DNA of 64,000 nucleotides from Frigidibacter oleivorans. Its GTDB lineage: Bacteria; Pseudomonadota; Alphaproteobacteria; Rhodobacterales; Rhodobacteraceae. Position 1 is the first letter of the stretch. Each line of letters opens with the position of its first letter. The stretch is taken from the NCBI RefSeq assembly GCF_003993775.1, contig NZ_RJRZ01000017.1, positions 1 to 64,000 on the forward strand. Reading direction: 5' to 3'. Made by a program: the position numbers and the translations under genes. The notes below the pieces were generated by a model. It saw nothing but the letters and a program-made list of their open reading frames with translations. It ran no database searches and was not told where the DNA came from. Positions 7,730-64,000 of this stretch are shown here, piece after piece.

Positions 7730-9441
7730 ACCGGCAGGCCCACGACGAAGCGCGCGCCGAGCGGTGGCAGCATCGGGTCGGGATCGGCGGGGCGGATGTT
7801 TTCCGCCCAGATCACCCCGCCATGCGCCTCGACGATCTGTTTCGAGATGGCGAGACCCAGCCCCGAATGTTCGCCGAACTGGCCGGCGGGGCGTTCCGAA
7901 TAGAAGCGCTTGAAGATCTTGGTCAGCGCGGTTTCCGGGATGCCCGGCCCGGTATCCTCGACCACCACCAGCACCCGGTTCTCGCGCTGGCGGGCCCAGA
8001 CCCGCACCGCGTCGCCCGCCTCGCAGAAGGAAATGGCATTGGTGATCAGGTTGACGAAGACCTGTGCCAGCCGCTCTTCCAGCCCCAGCAGGACGATCGG
8101 TTCCGACGGCAGGTCGGTGATGTAGTCGATGCCCTTCTCGGCGGCCTGCTGGCCCAGATACTGGTTGATGTTGCCCAGCGTCTTCAGCAGGTCGAAGGAT
8201 TCCTCCTCCTCCTTCACCAGCTCGCTGTCCAGCCGGCTGGCGTTGGAGATGTCGCTGACCAGCCGGTCGAGCCGGCGCACGTCATGTTCGATCACGTCCA
8301 GCAGCGTCGCGCGCTGATCGTCGCGCTTGGCGACCCGCAGAGTGCCCACCGCCGACCGCAGGCTGGCGAGCGGATTCTTGATCTCGTGCGCGACGTCGGC
8401 GGCGAACTGTTCGTTCGCGTCGATCCGGTCATAAAGCGCCGCGACCATGCCCCGCATCGCCCCGGACAGCCGCCCGATCTCGTCCGGGCGCGCGGTCAGG
8501 TCGGGGATGCGCACGCGTGCGGGGCTCATCTTCCGCGCATTGCGGTCGCGGCCCAGTTCGGCGGCCACGGCAAGGTCGGACAACGGGTTGGCGATGGTCG
8601 AGGCCAGGACCAGCGACAGCCCGATCGACACCAGGATGGCGATGATGAACATCTGCAGCACCTGTTCGCGCTCGGCCCGCACCAGATCGCCGATCTCGCC
8701 CGCGACCGAGCTGAGCGCCACCACCCCCACCACCTGTCCGTCATGGCGGATCGGCGTCGTCACGGCGAAGACGGCATCGCCCGGCCGCGCATGATCGGTC
8801 GCCACGCCGGTGCCGCCCTCTGCGGCGCGCGGCAGCAGCCCGCGCAGCATCGCCTCGGGGTCGGCGGCCGCCGCGGGTTCCACCTCGGGCCCGATGACCG
8901 AGGACAGGCCGCGCCAGACCGCGTTCAGGAAGTCGGTGATCGTGGTCGACCGCGGCGCGCGTTCCAGTTCCGGCACCGGATCCGGCGCGGTGCGGGGCAG
9001 GCCGCGCGTGGTGGCCAGCAATTGGCCCGCCGGATCATAGACGAACAACTCTACCTCGGGGGCGAGCGCGATACGCGACAGAAGCTGGTTCGCGCGGCCC
9101 AGATCCGCCGGCGCGCCGGGGACCATCCCCGCCTCGAACACATCGGCGACCAGCCGCGCCTCGGCCACCAGCCCGCGTTCGCGCTGCTGGACAAGGCTTT
9201 CGCGGAACGGGTTCAGGAACAGCACGCCCGCGACCATGATCAGCATGGCCAGCAGGTTGAAGGTGATGATCTTGCGCGCCAGCGGCGAACGGTTGACGGA
9301 CAGGAACCCGCGCTTGGCGCGGCCCTCGCTGAGTTCGCTGTCGCCCATCGCCTCGGGCGAGACCCAGTCTTCGCCGAGGACGACGCCGGCGGTGCGGCTG
9401 GGTCTGGCCATGCGCAGATCCGGTTCCGAAACGAGGGTCAT
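7726..9441 (-). CDS. chvG: Sensor histidine kinase ChvG/ExoS type
   Basis: Membrane histidine kinase of 571 residues. An N-terminal cytoplasmic extension of about 55 residues precedes TM1 (about 59-76), a periplasmic sensor domain follows (about 80-258), then TM2 (about 262-284), a HAMP linker, the phospho-accepting His352 in [13 protein letters not shown], and a HATPase domain with NLITNAI, DTGPGIP and [16 protein letters not shown]. It overlaps chvI by four bases (ATGA), so regulator and kinase are co-translated. In rhizobia this pair controls acid response, exopolysaccharide and central carbon genes; pckA, divergent here, is a known neighbour. Confidence 0.92.
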
Positions 9442-10139
9442 TCTTCGTTGTAGCGATAACCGATACCGTACAGGGTTTCGATCGCGGTAAAATCGTCATC
9501 GACGCTGCGCATCTTCTTGCGCAGCCGCTTGATGTGGCTGTCGATGGTGCGGTCGTCGACATAGACCTGGTCGTCATAGGCCACGTCCATCAGCTGGTCG
9601 CGGCTCTTGACGAAGCCCGGGCGCTGCGCCAGCGCCTGCAGCAGCAGGAATTCCGTCACCGTCAGCGCCACGTCGCGACCCTTCCACGACACCGAATGGC
9701 GCAGCGGGTCCATCGTCAGATGGCCCCGCACCATCACCTTGTTCTCTTCGGTGGTCGCGACCTCGCCGGAATTCACCGCCTCCTGGCGCCGCAGCAGGGC
9801 GCGGATGCGCTCGACCAGCAGCCGCTGCGAGAAGGGCTTCTTGACGTAGTCGTCCGCCCCCATGCGCAGGCCCAAAACCTCGTCGATCTCGTCATCCTTC
9901 GAGGTCAGGAAGATCACCGGCATCGAGGTGCGCTGCCGCAGCCGCTGCAGCAGGTCCATTCCGTCCATGCGCGGCATCTTGATGTCCAGCACCGCCATGT
10001 CCGGCAGACGTTTGGTAAAGGCCTCCAGCGCGGATTGCCCGTCGTTGTAGGTTTCGACCTCGAACCCCTCGGCCTCCAGCGTCATCGACACCGAGGTCAG
10101 GATGTTCCTGTCGTCATCGACCAGTGCAATCCTCGACAT
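9438..10139 (-). CDS. chvI: Response regulator ChvI, OmpR family
   Basis: 233-residue response regulator. The receiver domain has the acidic pocket DDD at 8-10, the phospho-accepting Asp52 in AVLDIKMP, a conserved Thr in FLTSK and the Lys of VKKPF. The C-terminal winged helix (about 135-230) is of the OmpR/PhoB type, ending [14 protein letters not shown]. It is the first gene of the minus-strand block chvI-chvG-hprK-rapZ-EIIA-ptsH, so its promoter in 10140-10503 probably drives the whole set. It is divergent from pckA. Confidence 0.95.
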
Positions 10140-10503
10140 CGTCCAGCCCCATCCAGTTTATTTGCCTGATTTTTGACAGATAGTCCCTTGCCACGCGCGC
10201 AGAATCAATCGGTATCTGCGAATCGGCTGGTCTTGATCGCCGGAAGGGTGCAGTAAAATGCGCATGCTGGCTTTCTTGCCGCACCCTCGCGGGCCTTCCG
10301 CGGGCGGGCGGCGCCGCCCCGACGGACTGGTTGCGCTAAACCGACCTTGGTTGCGCTAACTCCGTCAATTCCCCCGTTTCTTCATGCTATCGTCATGTTA
10401 TAGCGGCTGCGACGGCACGTTCCATCGTGGCTGTCCGGTGTTCTTCTGGCCCGGAATGCCGATCCTCAATGGAAGCCGACCTATCGGCTATGGGAGCTTG
10501 CAC
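10140..10503. promoter_or_regulatory. chvI/pckA divergent control region
   Basis: A 364-base non-coding stretch between the starts of chvI and pckA. It holds a pair of identical 11-mers, GGTTGCGCTAA, at 10329-10339 and 10349-10359, exactly 20 bases apart and thus on the same helix face, about 145-175 bases before pckA. The 10-mer TTGCGCTAAC at 10351-10360 resembles a LacI-family operator half (compare the palindrome GTTAGCGCTAAC). An in-frame extension of pckA runs back to 10384 but does not resemble the protein family. I see no RNA gene in this stretch. Confidence 0.5.
10329..10359 (+). repeat. Tandem GGTTGCGCTAA operator-like repeat
   Basis: Two perfect copies of an 11-mer with a 20-base period upstream of pckA. 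The spacing of two helical turns suggests cooperative binding by one regulator. LacI-type regulators of gluconeogenesis (CceR/PckR type) are known in alphaproteobacteria and are the leading guess; the match to their site is from memory and unverified. Confidence 0.5.
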
Positions 10504-12102
<1,599 letters not shown>

Positions 12103-16830: not shown

Positions 16831-17391
16831 ATGGTCACTTTCCCATACCTGGCCCTAGGCGCGAACTTGCCGACGGGGATGCAATCTGCAGATGAAACGC
16901 TGCGGCGTGCAATTGCGCAACTGGAAACAGAGCGTTTTCATATCCGCGACATAGGCCGCTTCTTTCACACCCCCGCCTTTCCGCAGGGCAGCGGGCCGGA
17001 CTATGTCAATGCCGCCGCGCGGGCGGAGACGGACCTGCCGGCAGAGGCGGTCCTTGCGCATCTGCACGCGGTCGAGGCCCGGCTGGGGCGCGAAAGGACG
17101 GGACGTTGGGCGGCGCGCACCGTGGATATCGACCTGCTGGCCATCGGTGATTCGATCCTGCCCGACGGCGCGGAGCAGGCCCGCTGGCGCACCCTGCCGC
17201 CCGGCCGGCAGCACATCGAGACGCCTGACCGGCTGATCCTGCCGCATCCGCGGATCACGGAACGCGCCTTCGTGCTGGTGCCGCTGGCCGATATCGCCCC
17301 GCTCTGGCAGGATCCCGTGACGGGGCGCCGCCTGCCGGACCTGCTGGCGGCGCTCGACCCGGCCGAGGTGGCGGCGGTGCGGCCGATCTGA
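16831..17391 (+). CDS. folK: 2-amino-4-hydroxy-6-hydroxymethyldihydropteridine pyrophosphokinase
   Basis: Transfers pyrophosphate from ATP to 6-hydroxymethyl-dihydropterin in folate synthesis. The 186-residue protein has the N-terminal LALGANLP, the FFHTPAFPQGSGPDYVNAA block that shapes the pterin site, and the RWAARTVDIDLLAIGD segment with the two metal-binding aspartates, then LPHPRITERAFVLVPLADIAP. The length is slightly above the bacterial average because of an insert around residues 110-135. It is divergent from the NYN gene and upstream of rpoZ. Folate supply fits the many folate-linked enzymes later in the window but is also housekeeping. Confidence 0.92.
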   Translation: MVTFPYLALGANLPTGMQSADETLRRAIAQLETERFHIRDIGRFFHTPAFPQGSGPDYVNAAARAETDLPAEAVLAHLHAVEARLGRERTGRWAARTVDIDLLAIGDSILPDGAEQARWRTLPPGRQHIETPDRLILPHPRITERAFVLVPLADIAPLWQDPVTGRRLPDLLAALDPAEVAAVRPI

Positions 17392-17505
17392 CGACGCCCG
17401 CTTCGCGCGACCCGGTCGTTCCCGGTGCCCAACCCTTCCCGCTTGTCAATACCGGACGGACCGCCTATGTAGCGCACTCATCTTCCATGCAGGATGGAGT
17501 TGCCG

Positions 17506-17862
17506 ATGGCCCGCGTGACGGTCGAAGACTGCGTTGACAAGGTTCCGAACCGTTTCGAGCTGGTGATGCTCGCCTCCCACCGCGCGCGAGAGATCGCGGC
17601 GGGGTCGCCGATCACCATCGACCGCGACAACGACAAGAACCCCGTCGTAAGCCTGCGCGAGATCGCGGAAGAGACGCAGGGCGCCGAAGACCTGCGCGAG
17701 CGGCTGATCGCCAGCCAGCAGACGCAGATCGAGATCGACGAACCGGAAGAAGACAGCATGTCGCTGCTGATGGGTTCGGGCGAGGCCGACCGCCCGGCGC
17801 AGGACGACATGGACGAAGAGCGCCTGTTGCGGCAGCTCATGGAAGCCCAGAACCAGGGCTGA
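17506..17862 (+). CDS. rpoZ: RNA polymerase omega subunit
   Basis: Small subunit that helps assemble RNA polymerase and mediates part of the ppGpp response. The protein starting [20 protein letters not shown] at 17506 has 118 residues and the omega core helices ([25 protein letters not shown]). The C-terminal half is acidic and variable, normal for alphaproteobacteria. I chose the ATG at 17506, which has GGAG seven bases upstream, over the one at 17494. It lies just before rsh, a widely conserved pairing. Confidence 0.95.
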
Positions 17863-17888
17863 CGCGGGATCGGGGCTGGCGGAGCGGA

Positions 17889-20012
17889 ATGATCGACGTC
17901 GAAGACCTGATCGCGCTGATCCGCAACTACAATCCCCGCACCAATGGCGATCTGATCCGGGCGGCCTATGACTATGGCCGCCTGATGCATGAAGGGCAGA
18001 TGCGCCAGTCGGGCGAGCCCTATTTCTCGCACCCCGTCGCCGTCGCCGCCATCCTGACCGAGATGCGGCTGGACGACGCGACGATCATCACCGCCCTTCT
18101 GCACGACACGATTGAGGACACCCGCGCCTCGTGGAAGGAAATCGCCAGCCGCTTCGGCGACGAGGTGGCGGACCTTGTTGACGGCGTGACGAAGCTGACC
18201 AACCTGCAGCTGTCCTCGACCGAGACGAAGCAGGCCGAAAACTTCCGCAAGCTGTTCATGGCGATGTCCCGCGACCTGCGGGTGATCCTCGTCAAGCTGG
18301 CCGACCGGCTGCACAACATGCGCACCATCAAGTCGATGCGCCCCGACAAGCAGGTGCAGAAGGCGCGCGAGACGATGGACATCTTTGCCCCGCTGGCGGG
18401 CCGGATGGGCATGCAGTGGATGCGCGAGGAACTGGAGGATCTGTCCTTCAAGGTCCTGAACCCCGAGGCCCGCAATTCGATCATCCGCCGCTTCCTGACG
18501 CTGCAGCGGGAATCGGGCGACGTGATCCCGAAGATCAGCTCGGACATCCGCAGCGAACTGGAAAAGGCCGATGTCGAGGCCGATGTCTTCGGCCGCGCCA
18601 AGAAGCCCTATTCGATCTGGCGCAAGATGCAGGAGAAAAGCCTTGCCTTTTCGCGCCTGTCCGACATCTACGGCTTTCGCATCATCACCCGGACCGAGGC
18701 CGACTGCTATCGCGTGCTCGGCGTCATCCATACCCGCTGGCGGGCGGTGCCGGGCCGGTTCAAGGACTATATCAGCCAGCCGAAATCGAACGGCTACCGC
18801 TCGATCCACACCACCGTGTCGGGACGCGACGGCAAGCGGGTCGAGGTGCAGATCCGCACCCGCCAGATGCACGAGGTGGCCGAGGCCGGCGTGGCCGCCC
18901 ACTGGTCCTATCGCGACGGGGTCCGGGCGAAGAACCCCTTCGCCGTCGATCCCGGCCGCTGGATCGAGACGCTGACGAAAAGCTTCGACGAGGGCGACCA
19001 CGACGAGTTCCTCGAGAACGTGAAGCTCGAGATGTACACCGACCAGGTGTTCTGCTTCACGCCCAAGGGCGATGTCGTGCAGCTGCCCAAGGGGGCGACG
19101 CCGCTCGACTACGCCTATGCCATCCACACGCGGATCGGCAATTCCTGCGTCGGCGCCAAGGTGGACGGCATCCGCGTGCCGCTGTGGACCCGGCTGCGCA
19201 ACGGCCAGTCGGTCGAGATCATCACTGCCGCCGGGCAGCGGCCGCAGGCCACCTGGCTCGACATCGTGGTGACGGGCCGGGCCAAGGCCGCGATCCGCCG
19301 GTCGCTGCGCGAGGAGGACCGCGAACGCTTCGTCAAGCTGGGGCAGGAACTGGCGCGGGTGGCCTTCGAACATGTCGGCCGGAAATGCACCGACAAGGCG
19401 CTGCGCACCGCGGCGCGGACGCTGGGCCTGCCCGACGAGGTCGAGGTGCTGGCACGGCTCGGCAGCGCGGAACTGACCGCGCGCGAGGTGGTCGAGGCGA
19501 TCTATCCCGAACTGGTCTCGACCCAGGCCGACGAGGTCGATGCCCGCCGGCCGGTCGTGGGGCTGGGCCCCGACCAGACCTTCCGCCGCGCCAGTTGCTG
19601 CCAGCCGCTGCCGGGCGAGCGGATCGTCGGCATCACCTATCGCGGCCAGGGCGTCATCGTCCACGCGATCGACTGCCCCGCCCTGGCGGAGTTCGAGGAA
19701 CAGCCGGACCGCTGGATCGACCTGCACTGGCATTCCGGCCGCCACGGCGCGGTGCATACCGTCAGCCTGAACCTGACGATCGCCAATGACGCGGGGGTTC
19801 TGGGCCGGATCTGCACCTTGATCGGCCAGCAGCGGGCGAATATCTCCGACATGCATTTCGTCGACAGAAAACCCGACTTCTACCGGCTGATCGTCGAGGT
19901 CGATCTGCGGGATGTGGAACACCTGCACATGGTGCTGACGGCGCTGGAGGCCGAAAGCGACGTGGCGCAGGTGGAACGCCACCGCGATCTGGCCCGCCGG
20001 CCCGGAAACTGA
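17889..20012 (+). CDS. rsh: Bifunctional (p)ppGpp synthetase/hydrolase Rsh
   Basis: Single long RelA/SpoT homologue controlling the stringent response. The 707-residue protein has an HD hydrolase domain with intact ligands (His48 in YFSHPVAVA, His72-Asp73 in LLHDTIEDT, and LVKLADRLHNMRT), a synthetase domain with YGFRIITR and PKSNGYRSIHT, a TGS domain (about 385-445, VFCFTPKGDVVQLPKGATPLDYAY) and a C-terminal ACT domain (about 630-700). Both catalytic sites look complete, so it should make and degrade (p)ppGpp. GGAG lies before the ATG. Hydrolase integrity is expected because no separate SpoT is seen. Confidence 0.95.
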   Translation: MIDVEDLIALIRNYNPRTNGDLIRAAYDYGRLMHEGQMRQSGEPYFSHPVAVAAILTEMRLDDATIITALLHDTIEDTRASWKEIASRFGDEVADLVDGVTKLTNLQLSSTETKQAENFRKLFMAMSRDLRVILVKLADRLHNMRTIKSMRPDKQVQKARETMDIFAPLAGRMGMQWMREELEDLSFKVLNPEARNSIIRRFLTLQRESGDVIPKISSDIRSELEKADVEADVFGRAKKPYSIWRKMQEKSLAFSRLSDIYGFRIITRTEADCYRVLGVIHTRWRAVPGRFKDYISQPKSNGYRSIHTTVSGRDGKRVEVQIRTRQMHEVAEAGVAAHWSYRDGVRAKNPFAVDPGRWIETLTKSFDEGDHDEFLENVKLEMYTDQVFCFTPKGDVVQLPKGATPLDYAYAIHTRIGNSCVGAKVDGIRVPLWTRLRNGQSVEIITAAGQRPQATWLDIVVTGRAKAAIRRSLREEDRERFVKLGQELARVAFEHVGRKCTDKALRTAARTLGLPDEVEVLARLGSAELTAREVVEAIYPELVSTQADEVDARRPVVGLGPDQTFRRASCCQPLPGERIVGITYRGQGVIVHAIDCPALAEFEEQPDRWIDLHWHSGRHGAVHTVSLNLTIANDAGVLGRICTLIGQQRANISDMHFVDRKPDFYRLIVEVDLRDVEHLHMVLTALEAESDVAQVERHRDLARRPGN

Positions 20013-59001: not shown

Positions 59002-59047
59002 TGGTCGGAGCGAGAGGATTCGAACCTCCGACCCCCTGCTCCCGAAG
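59002..59047 (-). repeat. Attachment site: 3' fragment of tRNA-Pro(CGG)
   Basis: Read on the minus strand this is the 3' half of a proline tRNA: anticodon loop TTCGGGA, stem part GCAGG, variable loop, the T-arm GGTTCGAATCC, and the acceptor end CTCCGACCA. The 5' half is missing: next to the loop the sequence becomes ACTCC instead of the expected CCTGC. Such a duplicated tRNA 3' end beside an integrase gene marks one end of an integrated element (attL). The complete tRNA gene should lie at the other end, outside the window. Confidence 0.85.
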
Positions 59048-59079: not shown

Positions 59080-60222
59080 TCAATTGGTTGCTTTCGCCGT
59101 CTTGGCCGCAGCAGGGACTTCTTCAGGGACTTTCCGCCTCCGGTTAGCGAGTGCTTCCAGCCCGGCGGCTACCTCGTCGTCTAGAACATGCGCGTAGCGG
59201 AGCGTGGTCTTGATGTCGGCATGGTTCAGAGTCCGCTGCACCAGCTTGACGTTTCCGGTGGCCCGAAGAAGCTTTGTGCCCACATCGTGCCGGATGTCGT
59301 GAAACCGGAAGTCAACAACGCCCGCCTTCTCGCGCGTGCGGCGCCATTGGGTCTTAGCCCCCTCCAAGGTGATGGGATACCGCTGCCCCCGCACTTTTCC
59401 GGCGCGGGTCTTCATGGCAGTATATGTGAACACCCATTCGGGGTGATGGCCCTTGAGCGGTTCCAGCAGAAACCGGACGGCCTCGGTGATCGGTGTCGTG
59501 ACCTTCCGCCCCCCTTTGCCCATGATGGTGATCTGCTTGGCACCCCAGTTTACGTCCCGCCACCGCAGAAGGGTTTCGCGGCGGCGCAAGCCCGTGAGAC
59601 GGGCAAACTCCAACCAAGGCGCATAGTCGGCTCGCACGGCCGCTTCCAGCGCCTCCGCTTCGTGGTCATGCAGTTCTCGCGTTCGCTCCTGCGGCTCCTT
59701 CAGCAGGTGGTCGCGCCAGATCGGTTCGTTCGGGAAGCTGTAGCGCCAGACCCTCTTCGCCCGACCGAACAGGTTCTTCAGCACCAATGTGCAGGTTCGA
59801 TTGACGGTGGCGGAGGAAATGCACGGCATCGGGCTGCCGTCCTTCCGGACTGTCTTTCCACCGATCGTGTGAGAGGCGCGCCAAGCGACCAGTTCGGCAA
59901 CATCCCGATCTGTGATCTGGTCAAGGCGAGTGTTCTTGCCAAGGCGCCCGATCAGGCGGGCGATGTCGCGCCACGTATCGGCTGCGTTCGCATGGTGCTG
60001 CCCGACTTCCTGCCAGTAGCGGCCGAAGGCGATGTCGAGCGTCAGCGGCCCCTTGCCCGCGGCTTTCTGCTGTTCGATGTCGGCCAGCAGTTCCTTCCGA
60101 AGGGTCTTCTCTAGGGCTTCGGCTTCGCGCCGGTTCCGGGTTTCGGCATTGCGCTGAACCCGGTGTCCTTTAAGGACGAAGTCAATTTGATAGATGCCTT
60201 TTTTATTTGTAAAGACAGACAC
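59080..60222 (-). CDS. int: Tyrosine recombinase (phage integrase)
   Basis: 380-residue site-specific recombinase. An N-terminal arm-binding part (about 1-55) and core-binding domain (about 60-160) precede the catalytic domain with Arg213 (TGLRRRE), His308 and Arg311 (FHDIRHD), His334 (LNHAD) and the nucleophile Tyr343 (LRYAH). All catalytic residues are present, so it may be active. Starts at GTG with GGGAG upstream and lies 33 bases from the tRNA-Pro fragment it presumably recognises. Overlaps the excisionase-like gene by 112 bases in another frame. Confidence 0.93.
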   Translation of the reverse strand: MSVFTNKKGIYQIDFVLKGHRVQRNAETRNRREAEALEKTLRKELLADIEQQKAAGKGPLTLDIAFGRYWQEVGQHHANAADTWRDIARLIGRLGKNTRLDQITDRDVAELVAWRASHTIGGKTVRKDGSPMPCISSATVNRTCTLVLKNLFGRAKRVWRYSFPNEPIWRDHLLKEPQERTRELHDHEAEALEAAVRADYAPWLEFARLTGLRRRETLLRWRDVNWGAKQITIMGKGGRKVTTPITEAVRFLLEPLKGHHPEWVFTYTAMKTRAGKVRGQRYPITLEGAKTQWRRTREKAGVVDFRFHDIRHDVGTKLLRATGNVKLVQRTLNHADIKTTLRYAHVLDDEVAAGLEALANRRRKVPEEVPAAAKTAKATN

Positions 60223-60464
60223 TTGGGCGTCTCCCGGACCTTCTGGTTCGCGATGAAAGTGCTGAGGTTCTTGGGGGTGAAGCGGTAGGATTTTCGCTTC
60301 GCGGTGCCGATGTTGATGAAGCGGAGGCGTCCGGCATGGACGTGGCTCATGACGGATTTCACGCTTATGCCAAGCTTCTCGGCCGCTTCGGCCGCGGTCA
60401 TCAGCGGAAAATCGTCCGAAGGCCCGGTGGGGGCCTTCGGTTTACGCAGGGTGATGACGGACAT
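60111..60464 (-). CDS. Excisionase-like helix-turn-helix protein
   Basis: 117-residue protein with a MerR-like/HTH_17 domain (about 20-70, MTAAEAAEKLGISVKSVMSHVHAGRLRFINIG) typical of recombination directionality factors. The C-terminal 37 residues overlap the start of int and are Lys/Pro-rich. It probably bends att DNA and steers int towards excision. The gene follows the 52-residue frame by two bases. Confidence 0.75.
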   Translation of the reverse strand: MSVITLRKPKAPTGPSDDFPLMTAAEAAEKLGISVKSVMSHVHAGRLRFINIGTAKRKSYRFTPKNLSTFIANQKVRETPKCLSLQIKKASIKLTSSLKDTGFSAMPKPGTGAKPKP

Positions 60465-60466
60465 CG

Positions 60467-60625
60467 TCAGACCGTCTTGATGCTGGCCATCCCGCCGAGG
60501 CTGGTCTTGATCGCCTCGGCTGCGGCCTGTGCTTCGGCCAGAGTTTTGTAGCCGGTAGAAACGCCCGCATGGCGAACGAAGAAGATCCCGGTTTCAGAAG
60601 TAGTGTCGACGATGATCCGCGTCAT
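60467..60625 (-). CDS. Small hypothetical protein, 52 residues
   Basis: Frame from ATG 60625 to TGA 60467. The ATG overlaps the stop of the 103-residue gene upstream (ATGA) and the stop lies two bases before the excisionase-like gene, so it fits a four-gene coupled operon. Sequence begins MTRIIVDTTSETGIFFVRHAG, a beta-hairpin-like pattern, followed by an Ala-rich helix. No family known. Confidence 0.65.
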   Translation of the reverse strand: MTRIIVDTTSETGIFFVRHAGVSTGYKTLAEAQAAAEAIKTSLGGMASIKTV

Positions 60626-60933
60626 GCAGCTTCTCCCGCGACACGGGCGCGGGCGGCAAGAGCTTGCGCCACCGCGTCATTCACGAGCGCCTCTTGAACC
60701 AGCAACAGCCTAGCTTGAAGGACTTCTGCCAGTTTCAGCAGTTCGTCACGGGTCAGGGCCTCGCCCAAGTCCACGACTACTTCGTCATCCATCGAAGCAT
60801 CGATGAAGAACAGCTTTTCACCGTCCTCGCCAAGGCACGGCACAACGAGTGCGTTGATCTCAGCCAGGATGTTCTCCGCGCAGGTCACTTCCTCATCCGC
60901 CCGCACGTCTTCAAGCATCTGTTCGTCGGTCAT
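60622..60933 (-). CDS. Acidic hypothetical protein, 103 residues
   Basis: First gene of the coupled set leading to int. Strongly acidic with predicted alpha-helices; AAGGAG precedes the ATG. No domain recognised. Being in a phage early-type operon, it may be an accessory or anti-host factor; nothing specific can be said. Confidence 0.65.
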   Translation of the reverse strand: MTDEQMLEDVRADEEVTCAENILAEINALVVPCLGEDGEKLFFIDASMDDEVVVDLGEALTRDELLKLAEVLQARLLLVQEALVNDAVAQALAARARVAGEAA

Positions 60934-61020
60934 TTCTCTTTCTCCTTCGAGGCCTTAACTGAAGCACTGAGGTAGTGTTTGGTCAGCTCGAGTCCGGTTG
61001 CGTCTCGCTGCGGCCTATCT

Positions 61021-61035
61021 TAGTGATATACACTA
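61021..61035. promoter_or_regulatory. Operator-like inverted repeat TAGTG-N5-CACTA
   Basis: Perfect 5-base arms in an AT-rich stretch (61015-61080) that also holds repeated TATCT/ATATCT words, between the acidic-protein operon and the ribbon-helix-helix gene. A plausible binding site for that regulator. Confidence 0.4.
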
Positions 61036-61082
61036 GAATCGGCCTCATATATCTAATTTATATCTCCAAGATAGGAAACTCG

Positions 61083-61379
61083 TTGAGCGAGAAACGGAAA
61101 CAATCTGGGGAACAGATGCTGGTTCGCTTTCCAGAGGGATCAGATCTGCGAAGCCGCCTAGAGGTCGCCGCCAAAGCCAACAACAGGTCAGTGACCGCTG
61201 AAATCATGCAGAGATTGGCGGTTTCATTTAGCTCCGAAGAAGATTGGGTAACTCTAACTCAGCGTTCACCAACGATGCGAGCAGAAAGAAAAATAATCGC
61301 CGCCGAAGCGCGGTTAATCGAAAGAATCGAGTCACTGGAAGAACGAATTGCAGCAATTGAGGCTAGAAAAAACAGCTGA
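61083..61379 (+). CDS. Arc-type ribbon-helix-helix regulator
   Basis: 98 residues from TTG 61083 (AGGAAA upstream; an ATG at 61116 is the alternative). The segment MLVRFPEGSDLRSRLEVAAKA then NRSVTAEIMQRL is the Arc/MetJ-like DNA-binding fold, followed by a C-terminal coiled coil (ARLIERIESLEERIAAIEA). Likely a dimeric repressor of the element, divergent from the integrase operon. The frame extends upstream to 60975 but that part is AT-rich promoter DNA. Confidence 0.7.
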   Translation: MSEKRKQSGEQMLVRFPEGSDLRSRLEVAAKANNRSVTAEIMQRLAVSFSSEEDWVTLTQRSPTMRAERKIIAAEARLIERIESLEERIAAIEARKNS

Positions 61380-61386
61380 ATATTCT

Positions 61387-62202
61387 CTAATCCCTGTTGC
61401 GATCCACTAAATCTATCCACTCATCATTCGCCAAACGCGTGCCGGACCGAACCTCACGAGAGAGCCGCCTAAGTTTCATCATTATCCCTTCATCGAAGTG
61501 AACGTCCACCCCAAATGAATCCCGCAGTTTCTTCTGCGCATCCTCGGCCCAACTGATTGCGTCGCCTGCGACATCCCCTTCATACTCTGCATCTATGTAC
61601 GGCCGATAGTTTTGGGGTATTTCACGCAGTTTTGCCACTCGCGCACTGTAGGCGACATGATCCTTGATCACCGGACCAAATTCAGCCGAAAGCCTTTTTT
61701 GTGCTTCGTTTCTTCCGGCTACCACAGCAGCATGTATCGGATCGAACAAATACCTCATAATATCAAGCACAAAGATCTTCTTAACCTTCGCCTCCAAGTC
61801 ACCAAAATCCAGCTTTTGCCCCAACTCATTGTGCTGCTGAACCAGGTCATCGTAGAGCTTCCAAGTTTCCCTCCAGCTGTTGGATGCTCCCCATCTACCT
61901 CTCATCGCGGCACCAAGCACCACTTCCCGCGTATAGATCGAGACGACAACTCGAAGTCTTTCTATCAAATCTGCGGCTTCTTTTTGCGTATCCTCCCAAA
62001 GCTCCGCCTCGATCCCAAACCCCTTGATTTTTTTGAATCGTGACAGCTTTGACATCACAAAGCTAAGTAGCGCCATGCCAAAGGACGCCGCGGCGGAGAC
62101 CAAGTCGTTATTGTAGAGACGCGCGATGCTAAATGCCAAGAATGTTCCGCCGATCAATGAAAAGGCAACGCGCTCCCAGTTCTTCGAAAGAAACTCCCGC
62201 AC
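61387..62202 (-). CDS. Two-TM membrane protein of unknown function
   Basis: 271 residues. Two predicted N-terminal membrane helices (about 11-30 and 36-52) followed by a 215-residue cytosolic region that is mostly helical and charged. Starts at GTG with AGGAGG upstream. Lower GC content than its neighbours and a location between int and tape measure genes suggest cargo acquired by the phage. I recognise no domain; superinfection exclusion or a defence role is possible but unsupported. Confidence 0.6.
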   Translation of the reverse strand: MREFLSKNWERVAFSLIGGTFLAFSIARLYNNDLVSAAASFGMALLSFVMSKLSRFKKIKGFGIEAELWEDTQKEAADLIERLRVVVSIYTREVVLGAAMRGRWGASNSWRETWKLYDDLVQQHNELGQKLDFGDLEAKVKKIFVLDIMRYLFDPIHAAVVAGRNEAQKRLSAEFGPVIKDHVAYSARVAKLREIPQNYRPYIDAEYEGDVAGDAISWAEDAQKKLRDSFGVDVHFDEGIMMKLRRLSREVRSGTRLANDEWIDLVDRNRD

Positions 62203-62278
62203 CCATCCCTCCTATGTTTTGCTGGCTGCGAGCCTACGCATTTGAGAGACGGACGGCAATTTGTCTGTCTTCGTCTTC

Positions 62279-64000
62279 TCACCCCTTCCGCATGACGGCA
62301 CGGTGCTGGTCCATCGCCGCCCGTGCGTCGGTCTGCGTCCTGCTGCGACCGAAGCTGTCGGGGGCAGGCAGGGCGTTCCGCACCTCAGCAGCGATCATCC
62401 GGGCAAGATTGCGGTCCTGTGACGGATTGCCGGAGCCGGTGACATTAATTGCAATCGACGGGGCGTAGCTGCTGGCAAAGGTCCGGCTGCCCACCAGCCC
62501 GCCGGAGGCGAAGCCGGGCAGCTTGCCGGTGTTGATGGCGTCCAGTGCCCGCACCCCGAGTCGCCGCACTGTCTCCTGCGGCATCACGTATTCGCCTTTG
62601 TGGACAACGCCTGCGGGCTGATACTTGCCGCCCGCCCCGGTGTATCCCCCAGACGCAAAGCCCATCATACCTGCCAAGCCGGTGGAAAGGGCGTCCCCGC
62701 CGATGCCGCCCCAGATCGTCGCGAACAGCCGGTTCGCCGCAAGTTCCGCCAGCCTGTTCAGGAGCTGGCTCACGGCATCCAGGGCGGTGTTGGCCCCGGT
62801 GATCCATCCGGTGAAGGCATCTCGGCCTGCCGTCTCGATACTGGCCTTGGCGCTGTCCAGCTGCTGTTGGGCGGCCGCCAGTTCACGTGCTGCCGCTTCG
62901 GCCTCCACATAGGCACCTGCCAGCCGGTCGGCCTCTGCCTTCAACTGGGGCGTCACTTCAAGGCCGGACTCCTGCGCCGCTGTCAGCAGATCATGCGCGA
63001 TCTTCGCCCGGTCCACTGCTGCCGTTTGTTCTTCGACCGATCCGGTTGCGGTGCGGCGGGCGTCGGCTTCGGCCTGCATCGCGGCGATACGCTCGCGCAG
63101 GCTTTCGGTTTCACGGTCATAGGCACTGGTCCGGTCGGCCCCGGAAGCGCCGCCTGATCCGCCACCCGACCCGGCAGAGGCAGGCGCGGGCGCCGGGCTG
63201 CGGGCATCCTGCCAGTCGCCGTAGCTGTCCACCCCCTGCCGCTGCGGCCGTGGCGAGGTAGTCGGGGCAACGGTGCTGACATAGGCACCGGCCCTCGCCT
63301 CGGCGATGGCGGCTGCCCGGTCGTCGGTCTGCAAGCCGTCCAGCCTGCGGATGGCATTGGCGGCTTCGGCCACGGCCGCCGGAATGCGGGCGATGGCGCC
63401 CAGCAGGCCGCCCACCGATGCTGTCACGTTGCCCAGACGGGCTGCGTCCAGGTCGCCAAGCCCTGTCACGGTGTTCTGGGCCTCGGTCGCAATCGCGGTC
63501 AGTTCGGCTCGGAGTTCTTCGCCCGTGATCGCCCCCGCCTCGAATTGCTGCACGGCCGCTTCCATCTGCGCAGCAAGTTCGGTCATCGTGGCGGCCGCGG
63601 TGGTGTTGCCAAGGCCGGTCATCGTCATGGCAGCATTGTTGAGTTCCAGTGCCGTGCCCCGCGCCTCACCGGCAAGGTGGCCGAATTCGATGCCGATCCC
63701 TTCGATTTCGGCGCGGGATGCCGCCGACACGTCGCCCAGATTTGCCAGCGACGCCGCCAGGCCGGGTCCGAACAGCTGTGCGGTCATCTGCTGGTCGAAG
63801 GGCAGGGCTTCGCGCATTTCCCGCACCAGCCCCAGCATCGTGGCGAGGTCCACGATTCCGGTCTTGAAGACGCTGCCCACGCGGGTCTGAAGTTCGGTAA
63901 ATTTCCGGTCCAGTTCGGCTGCCTTGGCAATCATCTGTGCGTCCATGACCGCGCCCACCTCATGCGCCCGCGCAATCGTGGCGCGCAGCCCGGCTTCGCC
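62279..64000 (-). CDS. Phage tail tape measure protein (5' end beyond window)
   Basis: The frame is open through the right edge; 573 residues are visible. Long Ala-rich coiled-coil regions, a Gly/Ser linker (about residues 275-290 of the visible part), then the C-terminal module FASGGYTGAGGKYQPAGVVHKGEYVMPQE and a second FASGGLVG, which is typical of lambda-type tape measure proteins. It would set tail length. No minor-tail genes follow downstream; instead comes the membrane protein at 61387. Confidence 0.85.
   Translation of the reverse strand, partial: GEAGLRATIARAHEVGAVMDAQMIAKAAELDRKFTELQTRVGSVFKTGIVDLATMLGLVREMREALPFDQQMTAQLFGPGLAASLANLGDVSAASRAEIEGIGIEFGHLAGEARGTALELNNAAMTMTGLGNTTAAATMTELAAQMEAAVQQFEAGAITGEELRAELTAIATEAQNTVTGLGDLDAARLGNVTASVGGLLGAIARIPAAVAEAANAIRRLDGLQTDDRAAAIAEARAGAYVSTVAPTTSPRPQRQGVDSYGDWQDARSPAPAPASAGSGGGSGGASGADRTSAYDRETESLRERIAAMQAEADARRTATGSVEEQTAAVDRAKIAHDLLTAAQESGLEVTPQLKAEADRLAGAYVEAEAAARELAAAQQQLDSAKASIETAGRDAFTGWITGANTALDAVSQLLNRLAELAANRLFATIWGGIGGDALSTGLAGMMGFASGGYTGAGGKYQPAGVVHKGEYVMPQETVRRLGVRALDAINTGKLPGFASGGLVGSRTFASSYAPSIAINVTGSGNPSQDRNLARMIAAEVRNALPAPDSFGRSRTQTDARAAMDQHRAVMRKG

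Follow-up and report, generated by a model that had tools for sequence, protein, structure and literature searches.

What kind of element carries a phage tape measure gene and then, in place of a tail tip, genes for its own integration? The question arises at the right-hand end of a stretch of Frigidibacter oleivorans DNA (the window, 64,000 nucleotides long, positions 1-64000 of contig C8, NZ_RJRZ01000017.1, which has 79,790 bp in a genome of 4.05 Mb). On the minus strand there, the gene for a tape measure protein (TMP) of 785 aa (62279-64636; L003:6280-8637; phrog_10574, E 3.5e-135, with Pfam PhageMin_Tail below cut-off) is followed by a gene for a 271-aa protein with two hydrophobic stretches near its N-terminus, as judged by eye (61387..62202; L003:5388-6203). 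The initial annotation had described a tape measure gene followed by a two-transmembrane-type protein and an integration module, and this is what we find: positions 62279-64000 are the 3' part of the TMP gene, and past the 271-aa protein come an Arc-like gene on the opposite strand, two small open reading frames (ORFs), an AlpA/HTH_17-like gene and a tyrosine integrase gene. It had offered two readings, a truncated prophage remnant or a phage-derived particle with a reduced tail. The second is on the right track, although 'satellite' is the better description of the element: head, neck, tube and ruler have been retained, and tip and lysis genes are absent. We consider it probable that it is a complete integrative phage satellite, similar to the capsid-forming phage-inducible chromosomal islands (cf-PICIs), with a head, shaft and ruler of its own and the tip of a helper phage.

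The element runs on beyond the window, and we treated C8:56000-75999 as locus L003 (window coordinate = L003 + 55999). An exact repeat search found 46 bp identical to the 3' part of tRNA-Pro(CGG) at the integrase end (59002..59047; L003:3003-3048) and a partner copy beyond the window, inside an intact tRNA-Pro(CGG) gene (74519-74564; L003:18520-18565), the span between these attachment (att) repeats being about 15.5 kb. Both repeats are present and the element is therefore complete at both ends; truncation by the window or the contig is ruled out, since the contig continues and both att sites were found. The element has a GC content of 63%, compared with 67% and 72% in its short flanks. When three genomes were used for an empty-site comparison (G205, G295 and G297), the right flank was contiguous with tRNA-Pro and the focal left flank had no counterpart beyond the tRNA. 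Between the att repeats, Pfam and PHROG searches of all but the two ORFs of 52 and 73 aa recognised no distal tail protein, hub, fibre, holin, endolysin or replication protein. The result that would have told against the initial annotation, tail-tip genes in working order elsewhere in the element, did not appear: with the remainder annotated, none was recognised by Pfam or PHROG upstream of the portal gene or at the element's other end.

A sister element (L239) occupies the same tRNA-Pro gene in a genome of the same genus (G296); its repeat measures about 45 bp, and it spans 16.3 kb. The two are 81% identical in capsid and in integrase and 48% identical in TMP, and all 15 genes compared are open, with ratios of nonsynonymous to synonymous substitution (dN/dS) of 0.11-0.50; the regulatory and cargo genes lay outside the comparison. 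Across the wider family described below, median dN/dS in up to 28 close pairs is 0.088 for the large terminase subunit (TerL), 0.17 for portal, 0.18 for terminator, 0.19 for neck, 0.26 for TMP and 0.30 for capsid, single values reaching 0.78. The genes are under purifying selection in the pairs compared.

Relatives of the TMP occur in 11 of 295 genomes of the same family, the focal genome being among them with two loci. Two of the 11 (G042 and G234) have other architectures with tip-like genes and one (G091) has only TMP pieces on short contigs. One module order is common to nine loci in eight genomes and to the focal element: portal, chaperone, protease, capsid, HNH, tube (where present), adaptor, neck, terminator, closure, small terminase subunit (TerS), TerL and TMP. 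Among the nine, E026b ends at a contig edge and E031 has an insertion in TerL, where about 1.1 kb with minus-strand ORFs interrupts the gene (L031:7433-8556); the one rve integrase-core match of the bulk scan probably stems from this insertion. Scans with the TMP alignment matched 201 relatives in GTDB genomes and at least 450 in IMG/VR, some of them standard-order phages; the best 80 loci of each scan were kept, giving 160 more loci, mostly from Rhodobacteraceae with some from Rhizobiales. The scans used patterns from the TMP N-terminal domain, so that conservation of that domain between satellites and full phages is a biased measure. Collapsing 170 loci at 97% TMP identity left 134, and in 121 of these (72 from genomes and 49 from IMG/VR, with E031 and its split TerL counted in) TerL lies directly upstream of the TMP gene; 100 of these permuted loci cover the capsid-to-TerL module in full. 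The family spans Rhodobacteraceae and some Rhizobiales, and its TMPs have a median length of 785 aa (range 492-1071; 700-900 aa in 104 of the 121).

Members of this family have boundaries too. Repeats of 16-50 bp in a tRNA gene were found at eight of nine loci with wide flanks, including the focal one (spans 15.5-20.2 kb; E252 has none), and att repeats at 12 of 74 loci in the wider set, where most others had only 10 kb upstream and the match at L074 (15 bp, 11.9 kb) is doubtful. Three members, of which a Pfam scan covered ten ORFs, are complete by topology, and for these three the doubt raised by early contig ends is therefore removed: L171 (17,661 bp, a 95-bp terminal repeat and a ParA-like protein), L174 (18,154 bp, a 127-bp terminal repeat) and L210, the Paracoccus marcusii 'plasmid unnamed5' (NZ_CP157016.1), a finished circle of 17,494 bp that has a Rep3 initiator and, in its annotation, no integrase. 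As NZ_CP157016.1 shows, a plasmid is one form in which the family can exist; plasmid replication genes, present in L210 and L171, were not recognised in the focal element by Pfam or PHROG.

The absence of a recognisable tip extends across the family. By tblastn (E 1e-3), with queries from full phages and from the gene transfer agent (GTA) of the host, J-like, hub and K/NlpC-like proteins were each found in 0 of the 121 permuted loci and the distal tail protein (Dit) in six, the names of most tip queries resting on gene order and size. The same search of the 13 other loci found J-like proteins in five and hub, K/NlpC-like and Dit proteins in four each; the STD-tip queries come from five of these 13, so that their seven matches include self-matches, and the J, hub, K and L228-Dit queries are independent. 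Fibre and lysozyme were found by tblastn only in L177 among the 121, both as self-matches. A PHROG scan took in 148 of 159 ORFs starting within 1.5 kb after the TMP gene at 109 permuted loci (the E loci stood outside it). Among the matches listed (25 of 37 families), chaperone-like proteins appear in up to 35 ORFs, a gpM-like minor tail protein (phrog_14) in 10, a distal tail protein in five and a tail fibre (phrog_11439) in one, at L177.

In lambda, J, I, K and L act before the TMP and the tube in assembly. In siphophages the N-terminus of the TMP lies toward the neck and its C-terminus toward the tip (PMC5099701, PMC11661146; PMC numbers here and below refer to the available part of each text), and in lambda a gpM ring anchors the tip to the tube, with the C-terminus of gpH inside the tip (PMC10721106). 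Of the tail, the satellites retain what lies between the head and this tube-tip joint, sometimes together with the joint ring, and they lack recognisable parts beyond it. In 62-66 of 120 members, about half, the C-terminal 190 aa of the TMP match any given one of four full-length TMPs from lambda-like prophages (1290-1412 aa), and in 91 of 120 they match TMPs from the 13 other loci. The N-terminal 280 aa have no match to any of the four. In three of these prophages the TMP gene is followed by M-/Dit-like, L-/hub-like, K-like and J-like genes, named by order and size, and in the fourth (L229) there are large ORFs of 1204 and 1145 aa further on. One genome (G046) carries both a satellite (E046) and a lambda-like prophage, and the ends of their TMPs are 58% identical over 59 aa.

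We envisage that the satellite integrates into tRNA-Pro by its own integrase; it encodes its own head, HNH/TerL packaging functions, neck, tail terminator, tube, chaperones and tape measure. During growth of a helper phage in the same cell, the satellite TMP, with the chaperones, may dock by its C-terminus on the helper's tip complex; the satellite tube would then polymerise along its own ruler, be capped by its own terminator and be joined to its own head, and the helper would lyse the cell. The product would combine, in one particle, the head and shaft of the satellite with the tip of the helper. More tentatively, we propose that a widespread alphaproteobacterial satellite lineage may divide satellite from helper inside the tail, at the tube-tip joint, plugging onto the helper tip via the TMP C-terminus and sometimes adding a gpM- or Dit-like joint protein.

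The family forms a graded series: head, neck, terminator and ruler without a detectable tube in group A, a tube as well in groups B and C, a joint ring besides in a few members, and a fibre and a lysozyme in L177. The groups were defined over the 100 whole-module loci. With a profile built from groups B and C, a profile search detected the tube protein in 0 of 50 group A loci, compared with 41 of 41 in group B and nine of nine in group C, to which the focal locus belongs. Group A retains portal, chaperone, capsid, neck, terminator, TerS, TerL, TMP and the protein p7493 in 48-50 of its 50 loci; without a detectable tube it therefore cannot make a tail alone by known means. p7493, the single gene of unassigned function that the loci share, was considered as a hidden tube protein of group A and rejected, its model being a beta hairpin with helices and no tube barrel (mean pLDDT 79; 0 PDB matches at E 0.001). 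We read it as a probable tail assembly chaperone (Pfam TAC_6, E 0.064, below cut-off). In unrooted trees of TerL and of portal the standard-order phages (seven and six sequences, respectively) separate cleanly; group B is clean by portal but not by TerL, and a tree of the neck protein has little resolution.

TerS, as Terminase_4, is present in all nine module-order loci, in 50 of 50 group A loci, in 41 of 41 group B loci and in one of nine group C loci, this one (L120) being placed outside the C clade by both the TerL and the portal tree. A hidden Terminase_4 was sought in the focal element with hmmsearch and not found (best E 1.5), and the sister element L239 has no TerS match. The lack in eight of nine group C loci and in L239 is therefore a trait of the focal subgroup and not a sign of decay. 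HTH-like proteins beside the HNH gene (L003:11763-12675 and L239:6947-8231) might serve as the small terminase in this subgroup. Protease and capsid, which are separate genes in the focal element, have been called as a single gene, of about 500-518 aa, in group A and in some group B loci (L022, L023, L025, L031, L024 and L026).

Several observations weigh against a satellite dependent on a helper's tip. In the focal subgroup (eight of nine group C loci) the Terminase_4 small subunit is lacking. Between 54 and 58 of the 120 members have no match to any given one of the four lambda-like TMPs, and the shared C-terminal motif is also found in Escherichia phages; such a common motif is therefore support for, and not proof of, a specific partner. 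Two loci of the focal genome match the tail-tip family PF13550 strongly, one on C3 (E 1.4e-41) and the other on C32, in an RcGTA-like cluster (E 2.1e-38); a weak match on C34 falls in an ORF resembling a TMP, and C34 was not counted as a tip locus. As candidates for a specific helper in this genome, C3 and C34 were rejected, for their TMP-like ORFs, named by eye, are unlike the focal TMP. At least 4 kb follows the TMP gene in 84 of the 121 loci, so that early contig ends limit the negative result, and the searches may have missed small holins or tip proteins of divergent sequence. The PHROG matches listed, being 25 of the 37 families, include a 'tail protein' (phrog_9574) in four post-TMP ORFs and a 'virion structural protein' (phrog_384) in three, and ORFs of no recognised family recur after the TMP gene (62 aa in 40 loci, 149 aa in 32, 170 aa in 16 and 220 aa in 14). 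At L177 the TMP gene is followed by genes for a 251-aa protein, a 585-aa tail fibre and, by eye, a lysozyme; not all members, therefore, need a helper's tip. Finally, induction, docking, the identity of a helper, particles and transfer are all inferred.

Some of these same observations would suit an autonomous mini-phage or phage-plasmid, in which a small ORF after the TMP gene would encode an unrecognised receptor binder and lysis would be due to a protein likewise unrecognised. At 15-20 kb the genomes have room for almost the full set of virion genes, a Rep3 or ParA-like protein occurs in some members that are circular replicons, a fibre and a lysozyme can follow the TMP gene, as at L177, and the gpM-like, distal tail, 'tail protein' and 'virion structural protein' matches listed, like the recurrent ORFs, could be read as parts of a compact tip. 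However, the 149-aa family looks by eye like a ribbon-helix-helix regulator, tblastn found hub, J and K proteins in none of the 121 loci, and the tube protein is not detectable in group A. The focal gene in the slot after the TMP is a poor candidate for the receptor binder, being found in 0 of the 294 other same-family genomes searched and only in its own (1 of 295). The sister element has a different gene there, and the focal gene is cargo in a variable slot. It has no Pfam or PHROG match, and a defence role was rejected for want of a PADLOC match. We regard the autonomous reading as unlikely. As for L177, it is possibly a self-sufficient or ancestral form; its fibre, lysozyme-like ORF and a small downstream ORF lie between the TMP gene and a chaperone-like gene (L177:7103-11536).

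A tail-less or stub-tailed particle, with the TMP as a neck plug or pilot and DNA delivered without a tip, would account for group A, which keeps terminator, chaperone and TMP in the absence of a detectable tube. Against this, the length of the TMP is in keeping with a ruler inside a tube, and groups B and C retain the tube, the profile for which was built from them; such a particle seems to us improbable.

RcGTA has its own gene order with a gp12-gp15 tip and is not known to carry an integrase. A further possibility is that the tip comes from the host's own RcGTA-like gene transfer agent, the element riding on its expression and release. The cluster on C32 contains a PF13550 gene of about 1430-1460 aa with gp12- and gp13-like neighbours (named by order and size only), a GTA-gp10-type protein lies inside the element, and the family inhabits Rhodobacteraceae and Rhizobiales, where RcGTA-like clusters are known (PMC11409702). 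Yet the TMP C-terminus matches ORFs from the host GTA region in two of 120 members, compared with 62-66 for each lambda-like TMP, and all six Dit-like matches in satellites were best with a phage query and not with the GTA one. We judge this origin of the tip very unlikely. Nor is the element a GTA of this type itself, having a different gene order, no tip, and an integrase with att sites; the RcGTA-like locus of the host is separate. A decaying prophage that has lost its tip, lysis and replication genes, the other reading offered at the outset and one already disfavoured, might explain the missing genes and the lack of Terminase_4 but is hardly credible for an element with intact att sites and 15 open genes under constraint relative to a sister at the same site, in a family whose 121 loci (of 134) share one stop point, include members complete by topology and split cleanly from standard-order relatives in the TerL and portal trees.

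An integrase gene and an AlpA-like regulator are typical of PICIs, and the focal element has both, together with att sites and a small size. Our comparison with cf-PICIs was made through their descriptions in PMC10690885 and PMC10803314. Like them, it is small and integrative and carries genes of its own for capsid, portal, protease, connectors, HNH and terminase (PMC10690885), the small subunit being missing in the focal subgroup, and it is of similar size, the cf-PICI average being 14 kb (PMC10803314). By analogy it may well work as a cf-PICI does. Unlike the cf-PICIs, which depend on a helper for tails (PMC10690885) and have no tail genes of their own, the satellite family has chaperones, terminator, TMP and, in groups B and C, a tube, all of which the focal element possesses; the main hosts listed in the available text of PMC10803314 do not include Rhodobacterales. 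The Streptomyces satellites MulchRoom and MiniFlayer also have capsid and packaging genes and rely on helpers, but, compared by description only, the satellite of the MulchRoom system has no known tail components and MiniFlayer has its own tail fibre (PMC10690885).

Full phages also share parts of the focal TMP. That of Sinorhizobium phage phi2LM21 is 55.6% identical to it over 206 aa of the N-terminal domain; this is, however, a 46.6-kb phage with lambda-type head genes in which a J protein, a fibre, a chitinase and a putative holin follow the TMP. The focal TMP is similar at each of its two ends to the tape measure region of Rhodobacter phage RcapNL, in separate pieces (26.7% and 43.6%), but this 40.5-kb phage has more genes after the TMP, one of them annotated as a tail component. 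The focal element, with no recognised hub, receptor-binding tip or lysis genes, is not a complete temperate siphophage, and with both att sites present and 15 genes open it shows neither the broken genes nor the lost boundary of a prophage remnant. One member has been described before: prophage 1 of Loktanella (Limimaricola) hongkongensis has the 17,661 bp of L171, and L171 is identical in sequence to the contig from strain DSM 17492 (26 of 26 windows tested in L072). It was reported as a predicted complete circular prophage (PMC8224337); the available text of that paper names one of its genes (a prohead protease) and has nothing on satellites or a missing tip.

Satellites that remodel the capsid of a helper are known. 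The cf-PICIs make heads and take whole tails from the helper (PMC10803314, PMC10690885), and a change of host range by swapping whole tails has been reported for them (PMC13345588). If the division does lie at the tip joint, host range would change by swapping helper tips. A family that makes the shaft as well would demonstrate that one genome can supply the shaft and another the tip, and it would offer a natural assay for the residues of the TMP and the joint that select a tip. Its members are now filed as a small circular prophage (PMC8224337), as a plasmid (NZ_CP157016.1, PLSDB) or as IMG/VR contigs, and a literature search that left subscription papers and bioRxiv largely uncovered found no paper on the family or on tip-only dependence.

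An ORF of 73 aa next to the partner att copy (L003:18299-18520) stood outside the family-library scans. The genes of the focal element, assigned by Pfam and PHROG, run in transcription order on the minus strand unless stated. The first is for a winged helix-turn-helix (HTH) protein of no family (L003:17643-18302). The structural module, which reaches 73240 in window numbering, begins with portal (L003:16003-17241; Phage_portal, E 1.6e-92), a GTA-gp10/TAC_11 protein (L003:15611-16006; E 4.9e-20), prohead protease (L003:15039-15614), HK97-type capsid (L003:13885-15042; E 1.4e-78), tail tube protein (L003:13248-13715; phrog_158, E 4.1e-18, the Pfam match being below cut-off) and p7493 (L003:12672-13232). 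It continues with an HTH protein (L003:12280-12675), HNH (L003:12089-12457), a small HTH-like protein (L003:11763-12092), adaptor (L003:11460-11762), HK97-gp10 neck protein (L003:11044-11460), tail terminator gp17 (L003:10637-11062), head closure (L003:10320-10640) and TerL (L003:8647-10320; 64646-66319, outside the window), and ends with the TMP. Past the 271-aa gene, the Arc-like gene on the plus strand (60975..61379; phrog_7906, E 1.9e-6; phrog_3178, E 4.9e-6) has its best match to phrog_1388, a family of unknown function (E 1.4e-9), and its true start is possibly further in; it may act as a regulatory switch of the early region. On the minus strand follow an ORF of 103 aa with no family above cut-off (60622..60933), one of 52 aa outside the family-library scans (60467..60625), the 117-aa AlpA/excisionase-like HTH_17 protein (60111..60464; PF12728, E 3.6e-9; phrog_66 excisionase, E 7.7e-5) and the 380-aa tyrosine integrase (59080..60222; PF00589, E 8.6e-27), which the AlpA-like gene overlaps by its final 112 bp.

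A second variable cargo slot lies between the HNH and adaptor genes (E252 16974-18029, E026a 18013-19310, L087:6258-6752); these examples are on the opposite strand inside the structural module, and their contents vary between elements. At four loci a protein of 192-253 aa is encoded directly after the TMP (for example L174:11925-12686 and L172:9759-10406); the copy in L174 has no Pfam match and its start resembles an Ntn-hydrolase by eye. One member (L075, CP059262.1) is in a metagenome-assembled genome titled Exiguobacterium profundum, far from the other hosts, and this is probably a mislabelled or mixed assembly. The focal genome (G000) itself holds a second family member of group B type on contig C11 (locus L026, TMP 9192-11294, with L037), which adjoins tRNA-Glu and has a 16-bp repeat and a span of 17.7 kb.

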